A stretch of DNA of 11,053 nucleotides from Gammaproteobacteria bacterium. GTDB taxonomy: Bacteria > Pseudomonadota > Gammaproteobacteria > BMS3Bbin11. A program made the translations under genes and the position numbers. The stretch covers positions 1 through 11,053 of the forward strand of contig DAOVWW010000016.1 in assembly GCA_030636465.1 (NCBI GenBank), read 5' to 3'. The notes beneath the pieces are model-generated. The model was given only the letters and a program-made list of their open reading frames with translations, did no database searches and had not been told where the DNA came from. This document shows positions 2,073-11,053 of this stretch, in pieces. The first letter of the stretch is position 1. The number at the start of each line of letters is the position of its first letter.

Positions 2073-3062
2073 CTAGCGAGAATTCATTGCGGCCTGGTTT
2101 TCAATAGTGGCGAAAGAGCCTTCTATTTCACGCGCCAGCTGTTGATACTGTTTCGCTGCCACACTTTCCTTGCTATAGAAAATAGTTGGTGTGTGATCGA
2201 TTTGTGATTCTTGAATCTTCTGGTCTTTGTCGATTCTGGTCTTGAATACTTTGTCCTGATATTTGCTTTTAAGTTTATCCAGAATAATGGCGCCTATAGG
2301 ATTATCCTGTTCAAATAATGTAACCAGAATATTCATCTCTATTTTATGATTAATTTTTGCTTCAATAACATTGATCATAGCTTCGATATGGCTTACCCCA
2401 TTTAGAGATAAGTAATCACATGGCATCGGGATCACCGCTGCATTGGATGCTAACAAAGCATTGAGTGTATAAAAATCACCAGAAGGAGGCGTATCGATCA
2501 GGATATAGTCAAAATTCCCCTTCACTTCAAGTAGCTTGTTCCTCAACATATATTCGAAGTTTTCATTTGGTAAATGCTTTTTTGATAATAGTGCCATTTT
2601 GCTATTTGAGGGCAATAACCAGAAATTATGATTAGTTTTTACCAGGTAACCGGATAGCTCATCATTTTCAGATTGAATAACATCAAAAAATGAGCGTGCA
2701 TCCCTGTGATTAAGTAAAAGTGTCAGGTTTGACTGAATATCAAAGTCAACCACCAGTACGCGCTTATTCATCAGTACCAGTGATGCAGCCAGGTTAAGGC
2801 ATGTCGTTGTCTTGGCGACACCACCTTTTTGATTGCATATAGTGATGACTCTACAGTTTGGGTTATCCTGATAATGTTTTTGTTTTGGTCTGACAGACGT
2901 CTCAGCAGGTAAAGAATGTGGTGTAACTTCACTATCAGAGACATGCTTTTTAACAAGAAAAGCATGCTTACATTTTCTACACCTGACTTTAAATACATCC
3001 ATCTTGGCCTTGCTTTCATCAAGCCTGTATTTAGTTTGGCATTCACCGCAGGTAATAATCAT
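2073..3062 (-). CDS. ParA-family ATPase with N-terminal MJ0042-type zinc ribbon, possible chemotaxis-array positioning protein
   Basis: A 329-residue protein with two parts. Residues 1-37 form a zinc ribbon, Cys5-x2-Cys8 and Cys28-x2-Cys31, in the pattern of the MJ0042 family (MIITC..C...Y.....-.VRC..C). A polar linker of about 30 residues follows. From residue 71 it is a ParA/Soj-type P-loop ATPase: deviant Walker A KGGVAKTT at 79-86 with the signature lysine Lys79, Walker A' DFDIQSN at 106-112 (Ile in place of the usual Pro), and Walker B ILIDTPP at 187-193. ParA relatives in che clusters (ParC in Vibrio, PpfA in Rhodobacter sphaeroides) position chemoreceptor arrays, and this gene sits directly after cheB, so the same role is inferred. 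No plasmid-type parB or centromere repeats are visible. The start ATG at 3060-3062 gives the zinc ribbon its usual extreme N-terminal place; a weak GAG motif lies 7 bases upstream. Confidence 0.85.
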   Translation of the reverse strand: MIITCGECQTKYRLDESKAKMDVFKVRCRKCKHAFLVKKHVSDSEVTPHSLPAETSVRPKQKHYQDNPNCRVITICNQKGGVAKTTTCLNLAASLVLMNKRVLVVDFDIQSNLTLLLNHRDARSFFDVIQSENDELSGYLVKTNHNFWLLPSNSKMALLSKKHLPNENFEYMLRNKLLEVKGNFDYILIDTPPSGDFYTLNALLASNAAVIPMPCDYLSLNGVSHIEAMINVIEAKINHKIEMNILVTLFEQDNPIGAIILDKLKSKYQDKVFKTRIDKDQKIQESQIDHTPTIFYSKESVAAKQYQQLAREIEGSFATIENQAAMNSR

Positions 3063-3153: not shown

Positions 3154-4224
3154 TCACGAATGAACGGTATGGTCTTCCTGTGATTGCATGGCGATGGATT
3201 TTTCAATCAGTACACCTAATTCATTTACATCAACAACCTCATCCACAAGCCCGCGCTCAATCACACATTGTGTCAGGTTGGGGTATACGCAAGTTTCTGT
3301 TTTTTGCGCAATTGTTGTACCAGACATGGATCTAATCATTTCAAAGCCGTCTCCACCATCTGACCCAACACCTGTGAGCATCACCCCAATGGAATTTTTT
3401 TCAAAGGCCTCTGCAACAGAAGCAAATAGAGAATCGAGAGGATTATCTGAATCAGGGTTCGATCTTAGAACCGCTTGATGAGACTGATTAATTTGAATGT
3501 TCATTGGCTCATGATAAGAACTGATATAACAACTTCCAGGTTCAAGAACCGTTCCTTCTGTAGCAACTTCGACTTTCCATGGCGTATACTGATTAAATTC
3601 ACTGACAAAAGAAGGCAGGATTCCAGATGCAATTTCCTGTATTACGACAATAGCGGCCGGTAGCTTAGGTGATAACTGTGACAAAATACGGATGATAGTG
3701 TTTGGACCACCCAGTGTCGTACCAATAGCAACAACGCTATCCAGATCATTAAAGCCGTATTTCTCGGATAGCTGTTCCCTGACATTGATTTTCTTCAACT
3801 TGACCCTGTGTACATTTTCAATGTGTACTGCAGCAGCAATCTTTACACGTTCTATAATTTCCTTACCCTGTTCATGTATGTCACGAGAAATGGCACCTGA
3901 TGGTTTGGGCAGGAAATCAACCACACCGAGGCGTAGTGCCTCGAAGGTAATATCACCATGGCCAAACAGTGAGCTGAGCATAATGATGGGTACAGGTTCA
4001 TGAACCATGATATGGCGAATCGCACTCAAACCATCCATCACTGGCATATCTACATCTAAGGTGACTACGTCAGGTCTTAATTGCTTAATTTTACTCAGTG
4101 CTTCAATTCCGTTTGCGGCACTTCCTATAACTTCGATTTCAGAATCAGATTCAATAATTTCTTTCAGTGCATTCACCATGAAAGATGCATCATCAACTAT
4201 CAGAACCTTAATCTTCTCAGACAT
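3154..4224 (-). CDS. cheB: CheB-like chemotaxis regulator with substituted methylesterase catalytic residues
   Basis: At 356 residues this has the usual CheB length and layout: receiver domain about 4-120, linker, methylesterase-like domain about 160-345. The receiver looks active, with Asp11/Asp12, phosphoacceptor Asp57 in TLDVDMP, Ser84 and Lys107 in LPKP. In the effector domain the fold motifs are clear (VVAIGTTLGGP at 164-174, VMLTGVGSDGGDG at 281-293), but two of the three catalytic residues of Salmonella CheB (Ser164, His190, Asp286) are replaced. The GASTGG nucleophile motif reads GTTLGG, putting Thr170 at the Ser, and the QH motif reads QE, putting Glu197 at the His. Asp289 is kept. 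I read the codons directly (ACA at 3715-3717, GAA at 3634-3636) and no frameshift is involved. The family demethylates and deamidates receptor glutamates; this copy is probably a pseudoenzyme or has altered chemistry. The gene follows cheA after 36 bases with AGGA upstream of its ATG. Confidence 0.9.
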   Translation of the reverse strand: MSEKIKVLIVDDASFMVNALKEIIESDSEIEVIGSAANGIEALSKIKQLRPDVVTLDVDMPVMDGLSAIRHIMVHEPVPIIMLSSLFGHGDITFEALRLGVVDFLPKPSGAISRDIHEQGKEIIERVKIAAAVHIENVHRVKLKKINVREQLSEKYGFNDLDSVVAIGTTLGGPNTIIRILSQLSPKLPAAIVVIQEIASGILPSFVSEFNQYTPWKVEVATEGTVLEPGSCYISSYHEPMNIQINQSHQAVLRSNPDSDNPLDSLFASVAEAFEKNSIGVMLTGVGSDGGDGFEMIRSMSGTTIAQKTETCVYPNLTQCVIERGLVDEVVDVNELGVLIEKSIAMQSQEDHTVHS

Positions 4225-4260: not shown

Positions 4261-7200
4261 TTAATGCAGACGATCACTCATTTCCCCTGAGCTTGAACTC
4301 AAGGTTGAATTGGCTAACTTCATTATTCCGGCCTGTTCTCTATTGCGTCTGATCTGCAAGTCGGAAGTCATCTTCACAAGTTCATAAACATCAATAATGA
4401 GCGATATGCGTCCATCACCCACTATGGTTGCACCTGAGAAACCACTTTTCTCCTGTACATAATCCTCTAATGGTTTTATAACAACCTCTTCCTGCCCAAG
4501 TAACTCATCGACCATAAAGCCAATTCTCTGGCCATCGGTATTAACAATTACGACGAATGATTTATCAGAATCATTATCAGAGGTCACCTTGAACAGTTTT
4601 GATAAACGAAAAACGGGTAATGCAACACCACGCAAATAAATGACTTCAACGCCTTCTACCATAGATGTATCCTCGTCACTGATACGTAGGGTTTCATCAA
4701 CATTGGTTAGAGGAATGGTCATTATGTCTTTACCTACTCTGATCATCAGGGCATGAATAATAGCCAGTGTTAACGGTATTTTAAGTCTAATCTGGGTGCC
4801 TTTTCCCAGTCTGGAGTCAATATCCAGAGTGCCGTTTAATGTCTCTATATTTCTCTTAACCACATCCATGCCTACACCACGACCTGATGTAGCAGTTATC
4901 TTATCGGCAGTTGAGAAACCAGGCATCAGGATGAGGTTAAGCACTTCACGATCACTCAAGCGTTCAATTTCTTCATCAGAGTAAAGGCCTTTACTAACAG
5001 CCTTTTGTTTTATTTTATCTGGATTCAAACCACGTCCATCATCGGTCACTTGAATAACAATATGGTTACTCTCCTGATAGGCTTCAAGAATTAGCTGGCC
5101 TTTTTCAGATTTATCATTTGCTGTACGTTCTTCTATGTTCTCGATACCATGATCTATCGCGTTACGAATTATATGAATTAATGGGTCTGATATTTCTTCA
5201 ACTATCATCCTGTCAAGTTCAGTTTCTTCACCACGCAAAATAAGGTTAACTTCCTTATCTATATTACTGGTCAAGTCATGTACCAGTCGTGGGTAGCGGT
5301 TGAAGAGATGTGATACAGGCAGCATTCGCATTTTCATCACACCTTCCTGAAGTTCATTAGAGGTTCTTCCTAATGCTGCAATGGCTTCACCTAATCGATA
5401 GCTAAACGAACGGATCAACTTCACTTCTTTTTGGTCAACTCCAACGGTGTCTTTAAAGTGCTGTTGTATATCTCGCATTTCATTGAATAACTGGAAAAAA
5501 TAGGAACGATCAACAACAAGTTCACCTACCTGATTCATCAGTGTGTCAATTTTGTCAGCATCGATCCTGACACTTTTTCTAAGCTTTTTCTTGCTGGTTT
5601 CACGTGGCCGGGCAGCAGTCTCATCTGCCGTATTGCTCTCCTGTTTTTGCTGCTTGATTACGGCAGGATCCTCCTCCTTTGCAGTCATAGGGGCTTTTTC
5701 CGACTCTGAGGACACCAGTACATCAAATACTTCGTTAAGTGTATCGTATTCACTGCTGGAGACTGTTTGCAGCGACGAATCTAAACTATTACTCAAGCGT
5801 ATGCGCAAGCCATCAGCCAGTGCTTTACTGGAGCTGTCATCCTGGTTTTTGTGCGGCAAAATGCTGATAGCAGAGTTAACAGTATTAGCTTTCTCAATAA
5901 TTGTTTCAGTTTGCTCAGTTTGTTGAGTTTGTTTTGAAATAGCAGGTGTTGCTCTTGTATTTTTTAACTGTGGAAAAGCCCTGGTCAGTGTTTCAAGATA
6001 AGCATTCATGAAGTCCAGTGACGGCTCCTCACCTTGAACAATATTCAGTGTTGCTTTAGCCAGTGCATCACTCCACTCCTCATAGAAGTGAGCGAGTTCG
6101 ATATATCCCATATAATTAGCAGAAGAGTACAGGCGGTTTATTATATCGAGACAATCGACCAGCTTTTCTTCCTCATCACTTACACCCATCAGTCCTGCAT
6201 AACAGGTCGTTAATTCTGTATACTGTTCCTGTAAGTGTTCTATGAATATACTGAACAGTTCATGGTCATTTTCGTCATCTAAATCCATTTGTGATGGGGT
6301 ACTTGATAACGTTTGTTTCAGTGTTTCTTCCGTATCTGTCGCTTCCTGTGCCATTGAAGATGTTCTGTCAATAAGAAAGACTAGTTCAGCAACCAGTTCT
6401 TCAGCGGGCGATACTTCCTGCTGACTTTCCTGCAGTTCATTTATCATTAAAGTGATCTGGTAAAATCCTGCATACAACAGTTCTACAATTGATTTATCAA
6501 GCAGCACCTGCCCACTTCTTAGCAGATCCAGTAGATCTTCAATACGCTGGGTTAGTAATGATAGTTGAGCAAGTCCTGTTAACTGCGCTGCACCCTGAAT
6601 ATTGTGTATGATTCTGAATATTCTATTCAGTAAGTCTATATTTCCAATTCCATCATCTAACTGTAGAAGTAGAGCACTCATTTCATCCAGGTTTTCGCTG
6701 GATTCATTTATAAAATTATCTAGCAGAGCAAGATTGATTTCACTACCTTCTTCCACAGTCTCTTCTTGATTGAAGATATCCATTACAGCAGTACTAATAT
6801 CATTATTTTGCTCTGTAGAATCTTCTAAATCTTCTATATACGCTTGACGGACTTCTTCAAGTTGAGGAAAAGTACTGATCATATAGTCTATATTTTCATC
6901 GATTAATTCTGCTGGAACTCCTTCACCACGAAACAAAGACTCCTGCGCATCATCAAGCTTTTCACTCCAATCATCCAGAAAGTCCAGAACCTCATCGTAG
7001 CCCATGTAATTGACCGATGATTTAATACGCTGTACGGCATCACTGCATTCCAGCAAGTGTTCATCATTAACTGAGTCCTGCTTGAATTGTAATGATGCAA
7101 TACATAGCAGGCTAAATTGTTCTTTCAGGTGGTCGGAAAAAATATTAAATAATTCTTCATCATTTTTTTCATCATATTCTGTACTGGTTGCTAGAACCGG

Positions 7201-7689
7201 ATTGGTTACAGAAGACCCTGTAAATGTTGGGTCAGTCGATATCTTTTCCTGTAATGGTGCGCTGCTGCTTATGGCGGGTTCAGTTTCCAGGGTGTCGGCC
7301 GCATCCCCTTCAAGAAGAATATTCAGCAGATTTATTAGTTCATCAACAGTCGATAACTCCTGTTGTGACTCTTCCAGTTCGTCTACAAGAACGACTATAC
7401 GATCTCGACCTGAAATCATCATGTCCACTATATCCAGCGTGGTTTCCTTCTCACCCCGACGTAGTAGATCCAGCAAATCTTCAAGGCGATGGGATAAACG
7501 TGAAATCCTGTCCAGTCCGGTTAGTTGCGACGTCCCCTTCACGTTATGCATGGTGCGGAAGATATCGTTTAAAATATCAAGATTACTCAGGTCAGCGCCA
7601 AGTTGAAGCAATAGTGATTCCATTTCATCCAGGTGCTCCCTGGACTCATCGATAAAATCATTTAGTAGTGCTGTATTAATATTGGCCAT
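4261..7689 (-). CDS. cheA: Chemotaxis histidine kinase CheA with four Hpt or Hpt-like domains in tandem duplication
   Basis: This protein has 1142 residues against about 650-700 for ordinary CheA. In order: Hpt1 (1-128) with phospho-His48, Lys51, His67 and Glu70, the same numbering as E. coli CheA; a linker; Hpt-like 2 (176-277) with Gln220 at the His site; Hpt3 (316-441) with His362 but Gln365 and Gln381 at the Lys and second His sites; Hpt-like 4 (474-575) with Asn518 at the His site; a Ser/Thr/Gln-rich linker 576-703; P3 dimerisation helices from about 705; P4 ATPase with N-box RNAIDHG at 842-848, G1 box DDGRG at 883-887, the GFSTAD F-box at 924-929 and G2 SGRGVGMD at 935-942; and P5 CheW-like domain about 975-1110. 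No recognisable P2 CheY-binding domain is seen. The kinase core looks active, phosphorylating His48 in trans for transfer to CheY and the CheB receiver. The ATG at 7687-7689 has AGGA 7 bases upstream. Confidence 0.96.
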   Translation of the reverse strand: MANINTALLNDFIDESREHLDEMESLLLQLGADLSNLDILNDIFRTMHNVKGTSQLTGLDRISRLSHRLEDLLDLLRRGEKETTLDIVDMMISGRDRIVVLVDELEESQQELSTVDELINLLNILLEGDAADTLETEPAISSSAPLQEKISTDPTFTGSSVTNPVLATSTEYDEKNDEELFNIFSDHLKEQFSLLCIASLQFKQDSVNDEHLLECSDAVQRIKSSVNYMGYDEVLDFLDDWSEKLDDAQESLFRGEGVPAELIDENIDYMISTFPQLEEVRQAYIEDLEDSTEQNNDISTAVMDIFNQEETVEEGSEINLALLDNFINESSENLDEMSALLLQLDDGIGNIDLLNRIFRIIHNIQGAAQLTGLAQLSLLTQRIEDLLDLLRSGQVLLDKSIVELLYAGFYQITLMINELQESQQEVSPAEELVAELVFLIDRTSSMAQEATDTEETLKQTLSSTPSQMDLDDENDHELFSIFIEHLQEQYTELTTCYAGLMGVSDEEEKLVDCLDIINRLYSSANYMGYIELAHFYEEWSDALAKATLNIVQGEEPSLDFMNAYLETLTRAFPQLKNTRATPAISKQTQQTEQTETIIEKANTVNSAISILPHKNQDDSSSKALADGLRIRLSNSLDSSLQTVSSSEYDTLNEVFDVLVSSESEKAPMTAKEEDPAVIKQQKQESNTADETAARPRETSKKKLRKSVRIDADKIDTLMNQVGELVVDRSYFFQLFNEMRDIQQHFKDTVGVDQKEVKLIRSFSYRLGEAIAALGRTSNELQEGVMKMRMLPVSHLFNRYPRLVHDLTSNIDKEVNLILRGEETELDRMIVEEISDPLIHIIRNAIDHGIENIEERTANDKSEKGQLILEAYQESNHIVIQVTDDGRGLNPDKIKQKAVSKGLYSDEEIERLSDREVLNLILMPGFSTADKITATSGRGVGMDVVKRNIETLNGTLDIDSRLGKGTQIRLKIPLTLAIIHALMIRVGKDIMTIPLTNVDETLRISDEDTSMVEGVEVIYLRGVALPVFRLSKLFKVTSDNDSDKSFVVIVNTDGQRIGFMVDELLGQEEVVIKPLEDYVQEKSGFSGATIVGDGRISLIIDVYELVKMTSDLQIRRNREQAGIMKLANSTLSSSSGEMSDRLH
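5965..6270 (-). repeat. CheA internal repeat B, copy 2 (Hpt-like, His replaced by Asn)
   Basis: This encodes residues 474-575. Asn518 (AAC at 6136-6138) sits at the phospho-His site and Tyr521 at the Lys site. The SSANYMGY and FPQL anchors are shared with copy 1. Confidence 0.75.
6367..6741 (-). repeat. CheA internal repeat A, copy 2 (Hpt with His but without partner Lys and second His)
   Basis: This encodes residues 317-441. His362 is read as CAC at 6604-6606. Gln365 (CAG at 6595-6597) replaces the Lys51 equivalent, and Gln381 replaces the His67 equivalent. Glu384 is kept. Confidence 0.85.
6859..7164 (-). repeat. CheA internal repeat B, copy 1 (Hpt-like, His replaced by Gln)
   Basis: This encodes residues 176-277. 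An ungapped alignment with copy 2 at 5965-6270 (offset 298) gives 37 identities over 102 positions, including NYMGY and a terminal FPQL. The stretch QRIKSSVNYMGY matches the spacing of the Hpt H-x-x-K-G motif with Gln220 at the His site and Lys223 kept. Confidence 0.75.
7309..7683 (-). repeat. CheA internal repeat A, copy 1 (canonical Hpt)
   Basis: This encodes residues 3-127 of CheA. An ungapped hand alignment with copy 2 at 6367-6741 (offset 314 residues) gives 46 identities over the first 78 positions, with looser similarity after that. It carries the functional-looking His48, Lys51, His67 and Glu70. Confidence 0.85.
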
Positions 7690-7745: not shown

Positions 7746-8096
<351 letters not shown>

Positions 8097-8128: not shown

Positions 8129-8671
8129 TTATCCAACACTGACTTCTTCGATGAGATTAATTTCCTCATAATCCATATCTTTCAATGCATAATATTCTTC
8201 ATTGAAAAGAACACTTTCGAAATCGAGAATAATCAGAAGCTGATCTCCAATTTCACACACACCCTGGATGTACTGGTTTTCACGGCCAGCGATAACAATT
8301 CCTGGAGGCGGGGCAATTGAGTCCTCAGTAAGCTTGAGCACTTCACTAACATTGTCAACGATAAAGCCAACAATGCGATTGCCGATACCCGGTATTAAAA
8401 TCCAGTTACTTTGCTGTGATTTATCCGGGTCGAAGAGCTTCAGCCGCTTACGCAGATCAATTACTGGAATAATGTCACCACGCAAGTTGATGACGCCTTC
8501 AATAAAAGAAGGTGAATTCGGGACAGGTGTTACGTCTGTTGACCGAATGATTTCCTGAACAGAAAGTATATTCACACCAAAACTTTCTTTACCAATTCCA
8601 AAGCCGACAAACTGCATCATGCCTTCGTCTTCATCGACCTCCTGTCTTCCCAGCTCAAAGGTGGTAGCCAT
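8129..8671 (-). CDS. cheW: Chemotaxis scaffold protein CheW
   Basis: A 180-residue adaptor that couples chemoreceptors to CheA by binding the receptor tip and the P5 domain. One CheW domain covers about residues 18-158. Landmarks are MQFVGFGIG at 19-27, the VQEIIR segment at 38-43, and the hallmark NLRGDIIPVIDLRKRL at 62-77. The N-terminal 17 residues and an acidic tail after 158 are extra and variable in the family. I chose the ATG at 8669-8671, preceded by GGAGA with a 9-base spacer. A TTG at 8692 in the same frame would add seven residues (MIWRISA) and swallow that ribosome site, so I set it aside. The gene follows the receptor gene after 80 bases and precedes cheY, as expected for co-expression of the signalling core. 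Confidence 0.95.
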   Translation of the reverse strand: MATTFELGRQEVDEDEGMMQFVGFGIGKESFGVNILSVQEIIRSTDVTPVPNSPSFIEGVINLRGDIIPVIDLRKRLKLFDPDKSQQSNWILIPGIGNRIVGFIVDNVSEVLKLTEDSIAPPPGIVIAGRENQYIQGVCEIGDQLLIILDFESVLFNEEYYALKDMDYEEINLIEEVSVG

Positions 8672-8680
8672 CGCACTAAT

Positions 8681-8685
8681 TCTCC
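8681..8685 (-). promoter_or_regulatory. Ribosome binding site that sets the cheW start
   Basis: This reads GGAGA on the minus strand, 9 bases before the ATG at 8669-8671. It supports the ATG over the upstream TTG at 8692. Confidence 0.6.
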
Positions 8686-8701
8686 AAATCAATCATTATC
8701 A

Positions 8702-8751: not shown

Positions 8752-11053
8752 CTAAATCTTAAATTGCTGTACCTGCTCAGTAAGGTGGTCAGACTCAGTT
8801 TGCAATCTTTCAGTAATGCCTACAACCACGCCCGCACCTTCTGCTGTTTGCTCCGCCGAAGTCGCCGACTGACTAGAAAGCTCGCTAATTGATAGTGAGC
8901 GTGTCGCCTGCATACCCGTTAATTCACCCATCTCAGTACCACGATCTACCACACCGTCCATTTCGTGGTTCATCTCCTGGATAGAGTCATTAGCTTCCTC
9001 TACCAGGCTGGTAATGTTAGACGAGTACTCAAGCAAGGTAGTCAGGGCTTCTTCAGCAGCCTTACGTCGTACACCCTGTTCACCGGCCATCGTACCGATT
9101 TCTTCGGCCAGGGTATTGAGGGTTACTACCTGTCCCTTAACTTCGGATGAATTCTTATTCAGTACCTCCGCCGTTTCACTAATCGCGGTAATGGCTTCCA
9201 TATTTACCCGACCACCATCTGCAATTTTCAGCAATGCCTGTTGAGACTTATTAGAAAGTTCTACACCCGCGGCAACGTTGTTAGTGGAGTCTTTAATCAG
9301 CTGTGTAATTTCCTTCGCCGCTTCAGAAGAACGTTGTGCCAGCTTACCTACTTCATCCGCAACCACCGCAAAACCTTTACCATGCGTGCCCGCACGCGCC
9401 GCTTCTACCGCGGCGTTCAGGGCCAGCAGGTTAGTCTGTTCGGCAATCTCTGTAATCACCGAGATGATTTCAGAAATCTGTTCAGATGATTCAGAAATAG
9501 CCTGCATACCATCCACCGTTGAGGCAACCGATTCACGCCCTTCCTCGGCCGCCTTGAGGGCAGCACTACCGTGTTCCTGTGCCTGTCCTACCGCAATCTG
9601 CATGTTGTCTACTGCTGACACCATACTGTTGATAGTTCCTGTTACCTGGTCAACCATCGACCCCTGTTGATCAGCAGTGGCCACAACCTTGGCACCTGTT
9701 TCACCCATTTCCGACACACGTTCCATGGTTGTATTAGCTACCTCATTCTGATTCTGGGCTGTATCGGATACCGTACCTATTTTGTCTACCAGCGAACCAA
9801 GCAGTTTCTGTGTATGCTGCGCTGCTGTCTGCTGACCGCCTGCTGCCGTTGATACGTCCTTAGCTGTCTGGCCCATTTCGGAAATAATCGTTGAAGATGA
9901 CTGGGCGCGTTCAAGCTGTTCTGCAGCACGGTTTTTGTTGCCCTGTGCACGTTGCGCCACATCCTTCGATGATGCGGCTACTTCGTTGGCCGCACTACTC
10001 ACAACCTTGAATGAGCCTCGTATTTTCTCCATCATATGGTTAAAGGCCTCAGCCATTTGACCGATCTCATCGCGGCCACCCTCTGCTACCTGAATCGTCA
10101 AATCTCGACTTTCTGCGATATGGCGTACTGTGTTGGCCATTGAAACAATTGGACCGGAGATAGCCCGTGTCAGTACTACCGAAATAATCACACCAAAGAC
10201 TAAACCAAATATCAGGATAGCCCACTCAACCGTCTCCAGTTCAGCCTCAAGCCTTTGCAGCTCACGCTGGTCAGCTAGCAATAACTCATTCTGGTTTTCT
10301 ACCATAGCAGTTAGCTGTACCACAATTTTGGCCGCAGTAGGTGCAGCTCGCGTATTCAGCCAGTAGTTGGCCAGGTTAGCTTCTTTACTGGCCTTGATCT
10401 TGAACATTTGTGGCGGATAAGTTTCAAACTCTGAGCGAAGTCTTTTGAACTGATCAAATACATCGCGTTGCTCTTCGGTAAAATACGGGTAGTAGTCAGA
10501 CAAGTCGCTAAAGCGCCTGCTGTTAGTGGCCCAGAAGTTTTCGTAGTTAATTCTGAATTTATCATCACCCGCCAACAGGAATGCACGAATGTTCGCCAGA
10601 CCCAGACCGAGTGAGCCACGAACATCCGCCATTGCGAAGAGGATTTCCTTACGTGTTTCGGTTGCGTCCTGCTGACCTTCAATGTTAATCATTCTGGTGA
10701 TCAATGCAGACATTTTTGACGCACGAGGCGCGGCATCGTCGAACAGCATCTTTTGCGCAGGCGTGGACTCAATTGTATTGGCGATATCTTCAATTTCCTG
10801 CTGATATTTACTGAACAAAGATATTTCTTTTCCAATAATTTTGAGGCGTTTGATGTTTTCTGGGTTGGTCCAGTTTTTGGAGAAGCCACGAAGCTCATCC
10901 AATTTTGGGTCAAGCCAGTTGTTCCATGCATCTGCCCTTTCATCCTTAAACTTGGGGTTACCCAGCAGCATCCAGCCACGCAAACCTGACAGTGACTGGT
11001 TCAGTCCATTAAGCATACTCAAGCTTGCCTCAGCAGTAGGCACTCGAAGGTCA
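8752..11053 (-). CDS. Methyl-accepting chemotaxis protein, N-terminus outside the window
   Basis: The frame stays open to the right edge (it reads D-L-R-V-P-T at the boundary), so the GTG at 11043 is not the start and TM1 lies outside. Numbering from that codon as residue 1, residues 1-268 are an all-helical extracytoplasmic sensor with two similar modules ([13 protein letters not shown] at 21-33, [13 protein letters not shown] at 152-164). TM2 is about 272-292, HAMP about 294-345, and a long coiled-coil signalling domain reaches residue 763. The tip [16 protein letters not shown] at 535-550 and [18 protein letters not shown] at 555-572 bind CheW and CheA. The post-HAMP coiled coil looks longer than that of E. 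coli Tsr. The C-terminus ends VQQFKI, with no CheR/CheB-binding pentapeptide such as NWETF. The layout resembles bimodular (HBM-like) receptors such as McpS, but the ligand is unknown. It heads the che cluster as seen here. Confidence 0.95.

Follow-up and report, generated by a model that had tools for sequence, protein, structure and literature searches.

The stretch of 11,053 nucleotides analysed here (the window) comes from a Gammaproteobacteria bacterium (assembly GCA_030636465.1) and is the entire contig DAOVWW010000016.1, whose bin is 72% complete with 2.7% contamination. On its minus strand, which carries all features described below, the open reading frame 4261–7689 encodes a CheA of 1142 amino acids. 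The N-terminus of this CheA consists of four segments in the order A-B-A'-B'. A (residues 3–127; 7309–7683) is a CheA P1 domain, that is, an Hpt domain, as judged by a Pfam Hpt match of 56.9 bits and an alignment of 36 sequences. B (residues 172–280; 6850–7176) is assigned as a pseudo-Hpt from an AlphaFold2 model, a profile of the B family, and residue conservation. A' (residues 317–441; 6367–6741) is a second P1 with an Hpt match of 48.8 bits and the same alignment behind it, and B' (residues 470–578; 5956–6282) is assigned as a second pseudo-Hpt from its repeat relation to B, a sub-cut-off Hpt match of 17.4 bits, the alignment, and structure prediction. A linker of residues ~579–699 (5593–5955), in which Pfam finds nothing above cut-off, leads to the core (4372–5577) formed by P3 (H-kinase_dim, 705–787), P4 (HATPase_c, 834–974), and P5 (CheW, 980–1106). 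The linker carries a short conserved stretch, SLDSSLQTVSSSEYDTLNEVFDVLVS, with the family consensus SLDSSLQ..SEYDTLNEVFDVLVS. The three core domains score over their cut-offs, A contributes an Hpt domain with a phospho-histidine, and the core matches a CheA in the PDB with an E-value of 6.8e-104; the protein is thus a CheA histidine kinase. An earlier note on this DNA had described a normal CheA core ending in P5 and lacking a receiver, and Pfam bears this out: no Response_reg domain is found in the protein.

The two halves of the N-terminus are clearly repeats of each other. Residues 3–127 and 317–441 align without gaps at 62 of 125 identical positions (z = 15.0, 1000 shuffles), with 46 of 78 identical in the best stretch. 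Residues 176–277 and 474–575 share 37 of 102 positions (z = 12.3, 1000 shuffles), and BLASTP of residues 1–300 against 301–600 gives an E-value of 1e-66 at 38% identity. The tandem duplication of a two-domain unit proposed in the earlier note was therefore correct in its coordinates and counts. On the whole protein, Pfam reports Hpt in three stretches besides H-kinase_dim, HATPase_c, and CheW. In a piecewise scan, A and A' are matched, B' stays under the cut-off of 24.6 bits, and B is without a match to Hpt.

Relatives were collected with residues 1–600, which yielded 263 homologues among 7990 scored candidates; the results below cover the 120 listed homologues, some of them partial. Domain layouts were called with hidden Markov models (HMMs) built from 36 of these 120, and active-site residues were compared in an alignment of 36 sequences that includes the window protein. 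In A, the phospho-histidine is His48 (codon 7546–7548) within the motif HNVKG, followed by a second histidine, His67, and by Glu70. His48, Lys51, Gly52, His67, and Glu70 are each present in 36 of 36 sequences, and His48 is found in 86 of the 87 homologues with an A-B-A-B layout, the exception (P0103) starting too late. The corresponding histidine of A' is present in 83 of the 87 and in 35 of the 36 aligned sequences. A and A' are accordingly assigned as ordinary CheA P1 domains on profile matches and aligned residues. The A' of the window protein retains its phospho-histidine, His362 (codon 6604–6606), in the motif HNIQG. It carries Gln365 (6595–6597) at the equivalent of Lys51, where 34 of 36 sequences have Lys, and Gln381 (6547–6549) at the equivalent of His67, where 35 of 36 have His. 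In the closest relative, P0002, the motif reads NNIQG and the phospho-histidine is lost. Because of these replacements, A' appears to be losing its role in this small clade; in the window protein, A' is probably a poor acceptor by now and A the main one left.

B and B' lack the phospho-histidine that A and A' possess. The position is occupied by Gln220 in B (codon 7030–7032) and by Asn518 in B' (codon 6136–6138), and the residues in this column vary across the 36 aligned sequences. Only two of the 232 B domains in the listed homologues have His at the phosphate site (the second B of P0050 and the first of P0082), and for the genome loci described below the count is one in 133 B domains. B and B' are thus classed, from their residues, as pseudo-Hpts that are not phosphorylatable at the usual site. 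Conservation in B lies in other residues: S224, S225, N227, Y228, M229, Y231, and W241. Tyr228 is present in 231, Met229 in 232, and Tyr231 in 229 of the 232 B domains. This set was found with the whole N-terminus and is the fairer one, yet the domain HMMs were built from 36 of these proteins; in the 133 locus domains, the Y-M-x-Y motif is partly there by construction, since the search patterns included it. The near-invariant motif argues for a retained function of B.

The fold and descent of B point in the direction of P1. AlphaFold2 predicts B alone as five helices with a predicted local distance difference test (pLDDT) value of 89. The match of this fold to Hpt is suggestive only; it was rejected as proof of the identity of B, since other helical bundles score alike. 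The profile of the B family aligns without gaps with the P1 domain of Thermotoga maritima CheA (2ld6, E 8.9e-6; 1tqg, E 1.7e-5), the phospho-histidine of this P1 lying opposite the Gln220 column. An hhalign comparison of B with A gives an E-value of 1.9e-6 at a probability of 89.6%, and Pfam Hpt matches 20 of 68 B domains, any other family only one. By this profile similarity, B is derived from P1. The designation as a two-domain Hpt unit in the earlier note thus holds as regards the ancestry of B and its predicted fold, an Hpt-like helical bundle being predicted for the second segment of each pair, but it does not extend to phosphorylation of B at the usual site. The predicted structure of the N-terminus features low pLDDT at residues 129–176 and 452–474 and a predicted template modelling score (pTM) of 0.33, which fits with flexible linkers.

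B sits between P1 and P3, the position of P2 in canonical CheA. The Pfam annotation of the 120 listed homologues contains neither PF07194 nor PF09078, which we take to be the P2 and CheY-binding families. In the window CheA, no Pfam match to a P2 or CheY-binding family was found; according to a survey of CheA architectures from 2023, HMMER misses many P2 domains (PMC10782961).

The A-B pair recurs throughout the family. Among the 120 listed homologues, the layout A-B-A-B is the commonest (87), followed by A-B-B (15), A-B (10), A-B-A-B-A-B (3), and A-B-A (2), with B-A-B, A-B-A-B-A-B-B, and A-A-A-B occurring once each. At least one B is present in 120 of 120, as called by the HMMs built from this family. 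B has been multiplied alone more often than A: 15 proteins are A-B-B, against two A-B-A and one A-A-A-B. A layout unique to this CheA is ruled out by the 87 proteins that share it. Within the A-B-A-B proteins, the likeness between a protein's own two copies exceeds the mean of each orthologue set in 67 of 87 cases for A and in 57 of 87 for B. Copies thus usually appear to be kept alike or renewed, as judged by the A pairs. The window protein is an exception for A (0.496 between its own copies; 0.61 and 0.45 to the orthologues) as well as for B (0.35; 0.36 and 0.39). The divergence of the second copy noted earlier therefore holds for this protein but not for the 67 homologues with more similar A copies.

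Several of the arrays appear to have changed their length. In locus L080 (320–3046; Desulfatitalea sp. BRH_c12), the DNA of the first A-B unit hardly differs from that of the second, with 123 of 123 codons shared in A and 98% identity in B; this near-exact tandem is best read as a recent duplication. The copies in locus L041 share 88–91% protein identity and carry many synonymous differences. A tree of the cores requires 23 arrangement changes over 12 labels and 186 rows, a rough figure because the tree contains incomplete contigs as well as long branches (L071, L054, L061, L035). Based on these duplications and the core tree, the A-B pair is shown as a module whose number has, to judge by the sequences, changed repeatedly. 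A single old duplication in its simple form is not supported: a quick tree of the A domains needs 29–31 changes to separate first and second copies of the A-B-A-B proteins, although this tree rests on 125 columns and resolves poorly. Three of the long branches (L054, L061, L071) are CheA-like genes of A-B-B layout whose core is highly divergent and whose neighbours differ. In one Chromatiales bin, two contigs (the end of L049 and the start of L055) break inside the A-B array, as is expected if near-identical repeats stop assembly.

The CheA gene is part of a chemosensory cluster. The gene order in the window is chemoreceptor, CheW, CheY, CheA, CheB, zinc-ribbon ParA, ABC permease, ABC ATPase, and substrate-binding protein. 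The chemoreceptor (8752–11052), truncated at the contig end, features HAMP and methyl-accepting chemotaxis protein (MCP) signalling domains by Pfam. CheW (8129–8692) has an uncertain start codon, the Pfam CheW match lying on 8129–8674, and CheY (7746–8096) is a Response_reg match. CheB (3154–4224) was assigned from its receiver residue Asp57 and alignments with Salmonella CheB (1a2o) and 57 relatives. The ParA-type ATPase (2073–3062) carries an N-terminal zinc ribbon (Pfam AAA_31 and Zn_ribbon_4). The three transporter genes were assigned from their counterparts in locus L025: the ABC permease (1219–1977; BPD_transp_1), a member of the conserved cluster by synteny; the ABC ATPase (395–1285; ABC_tran, likewise syntenic), whose true start is probably within the open reading frame; and the substrate-binding protein (1–414; NMT1_2), an open reading frame truncated at the contig end.

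A scan of a genome collection with the B alignment gave 76 loci (80 kept of 86 confirmed), which by their titles are mostly from Gammaproteobacteria and Desulfobacterota. The names include Competibacter, Contendobacter, Achromatium, Venteria, Electrothrix, Electronema, and Desulfonema; one Synechococcaceae and one Polarisedimenticolaceae title may be bin labels. Synteny was counted in the 72 loci in which a single frame holds both the CheA core and B, and for each gene only where enough flank was present. CheY is found in 58 of 62, CheW in 57 of 62, the chemoreceptor in 47 of 53, CheB in 59 of 65, and the zinc-ribbon ParA in 50 of 58 loci. The ABC permease is present in 44 of 52, the ATPase in 38 of 52, and the substrate-binding protein in 23 of 34; the NMT1-type ABC transporter, present in most loci with flank, is thus a member of the cluster rather than a chance neighbour. 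A second CheB-like protein lies upstream in 35 of 44 loci, and a third one occurs in 23 loci. Some clusters of Desulfobacterota (L053:6642–7160; L072:5915–6721) have an extra HAMP-like gene between CheY and CheA.

The CheB of the window does not carry the triad of an active methylesterase. Aligned to Salmonella CheB, it has Thr170 in place of the catalytic Ser and Glu197 in place of the His, and only Asp289 is retained; we presume that these positions have their roles in the Ser-His-Asp triad. In the 57 relatives of this downstream CheB, the His place holds Glu in 52, Asp in five, and His in none, and the Ser place holds Thr in 33, Ser in 21, and Asn in three. All 57 retain the receiver Asp, and 56 of them the triad Asp. 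The upstream CheB-like protein has the receiver Asp in 52 of 52, Ser in 10, His in 14, and both in four (L050, L060, L084, L092). From these residues, the downstream CheB seems to be inactive in every relative, and the upstream protein in most; to extend this to every CheB-like protein of the cluster would be too strong, as four of 52 upstream ones keep Ser and His. A lack of CheR in these organisms was ruled out, for 18 of 20 chosen genomes from the loci encode CheR somewhere; none was found in the window's own, 72% complete, genome. Flagellin was found in just seven of these 20 genomes, with none in the other 13 and none in the incomplete genome of the window, and the system is therefore not tied to flagella.

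The source of the contig itself deserves caution. The 600-residue N-terminus of CheA has no close match in six genomes of the same genus and one of the same family (best E 1.1e-8); a locus common to the genus was not found in these seven relatives. With ParA as a query, the same relatives give E-values down to 1.4e-42 among the matches listed; these begin at residue 58, have ~32–36% identity, and do not cover the zinc ribbon. Three chunks of the contig have tetranucleotide distances of 0.25, 0.28, and 0.17, compared with 0.14–0.23 for 17 readable contigs out of a sample of 18 (the remaining one reads as N), and the G+C content is 0.42 versus 0.43–0.50. Mis-binning or transfer is possible, and, as the seven relatives lack a close match, the source organism may be other than the one named. 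The same genome holds a second CheA (contig C83 of G000) with four Hpt matches in one frame.

What the A-B pair does is best approached from B, which is strongly conserved in the relatives and yet without a phosphate site; the pair is for this reason probably a functional element and not a mere curiosity. The reading to which we give the highest probability, roughly 45%, is that of a repeated pair of active P1 and pseudo-P1 in which B replaces P2 as a docking platform for receivers; a docking device was also among the suggestions of the earlier note. The N-terminus would then be a row of folded beads on flexible linkers. P4 would phosphorylate His48 of A and, in most relatives, also the His of A', a step expected from established CheA chemistry and the conserved residues. 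From A, the phosphate would move on to CheY and the receiver parts of the CheB-like proteins, while B would hold the response regulator beside the neighbouring A—the job of P2 in Escherichia coli CheA. With each added pair, more sites for docking and transfer would be available locally. Docking is the most likely role of B in view of its position, the lack of a detected P2, its strong conservation, and its separate multiplication; that B binds a receiver, which receiver this would be, and that copy number tunes the rate are what we infer. If B docks receivers, this would explain how some CheA proteins manage without P2.

Somewhat over half as probable is a set of equivalent P1 acceptors that would raise the capacity or store phosphate, with B as a partnerless spacer or solubility domain. 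Active-site residues kept by both A and A' in most relatives, the usual likeness of the two A copies (67 of 87), and the long linkers speak for it. However, the near-invariant Y-M-x-Y of B would be superfluous in a spacer, B has been copied without A in the A-B-B proteins, and equivalence is broken in the window A', which lacks two active-site residues, and in P0002, which lacks the A' histidine. Unlikely, but still of some weight, is a regulatory B that would bind P3–P4, CheW, or a partner such as ParA and so place or gate the kinase in an array. The presence of a zinc-ribbon ParA at 50 of the 58 loci with enough flank and the strong conservation of B are consistent with it; the clusters L030, L031, L039, and L048, however, keep B while lacking a ParA match. 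The layered phosphorelay raised in the earlier note, from A via B and A' to B', accords with the order of the segments and their Hpt-like folds. Transfer between Hpt domains normally proceeds via an Asp receiver; no receiver is present in cis, and the phospho-histidine is missing from B, from B', and from 230 of the 232 B domains in the listed homologues, which together make this relay improbable. Least probable of all is that B and B' are decaying, functionless Hpt copies: the His is lost and decayed Hpts are described for Rhodobacter sphaeroides CheA3 in the survey (PMC10782961), but the residues are near-invariant in 232 B domains and B is found in all 120 listed homologues, by HMMs built from this family.

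Taken beyond CheA, the cluster might represent a novel chemosensory class, a doubtful proposal for the time being: a CheA with a variable P1/pseudo-P1 array, CheB-type receivers mostly devoid of esterase residues, a zinc-ribbon ParA, and an NMT1-type ABC transporter, occurring in both Gammaproteobacteria and Desulfobacterota and extending to organisms, cable bacteria among them, for which no flagellin was detected. The co-encoded transporter may supply the ligand signal. The four upstream CheB-like proteins that keep Ser and His and the third CheB-like protein in 23 loci lower the probability of such a class. If it holds, most members would signal without a CheB-type methylation feedback of their own. 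In any case, natural kinases with one, two, and three regular, conserved pairs make the role of a His-less Hpt testable. In a search of the open-licence part of PMC, neither this layout or cluster nor the pairwise A-B repeat, its variable number, or the degenerate CheB partners were found described, which is weak evidence of absence.

CheA proteins with several Hpt domains are known. According to the 2023 survey, at least two Hpts occur in 18% of CheA sequences, more than 90% of multi-Hpt CheA proteins carry a receiver, and the function of Hpts lacking a phosphate site is described as undetermined (PMC10782961). All CheA proteins of class F4 are described there as having three Hpt domains, and Pfam likewise finds three Hpt stretches in the window protein, P0002, P0004, and P0009. 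However, Pfam detects only two such stretches in P0038 and P0077, which are both A-B-A-B, and a single one in P0120, which is A-B. The Hpt count of the family is thus not uniform, and three Hpts are consistent with class F4 for the window protein but not sufficient; the family may include or belong to this class. A further difference from F4 is that flagellin was missing from the search results for 13 of 20 chosen genomes of the family.

ChpA of Pseudomonas aeruginosa, of the Tfp class, resembles the window protein in having many Hpt-type domains ahead of the CheA core, some without phospho-histidine (PMC10782961). A review of Pil-Chp gives ChpA nine phosphotransfer domains, five of them active and the remaining four of open function (PMC12632253). 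The window CheA differs by lacking the C-terminal receiver of Tfp- and ACF-type multi-Hpt proteins and by its regular repeat of an active and an inactive domain. The multi-Hpt CheA on contig C83 may, by inference only, be the ChpA-like one of this genome.

CheA3 of R. sphaeroides, as described in the survey, likewise combines one active Hpt with further His-less ones (PMC10782961). In the window protein, however, the kinase domain is recognised and the B domains are conserved rather than degraded. With the canonical five-domain CheA of E. coli and Thermotoga, the protein shares P1, P3, P4, and P5; it differs in that no P2 is detected, B stands in its place, and the P1 region is duplicated.

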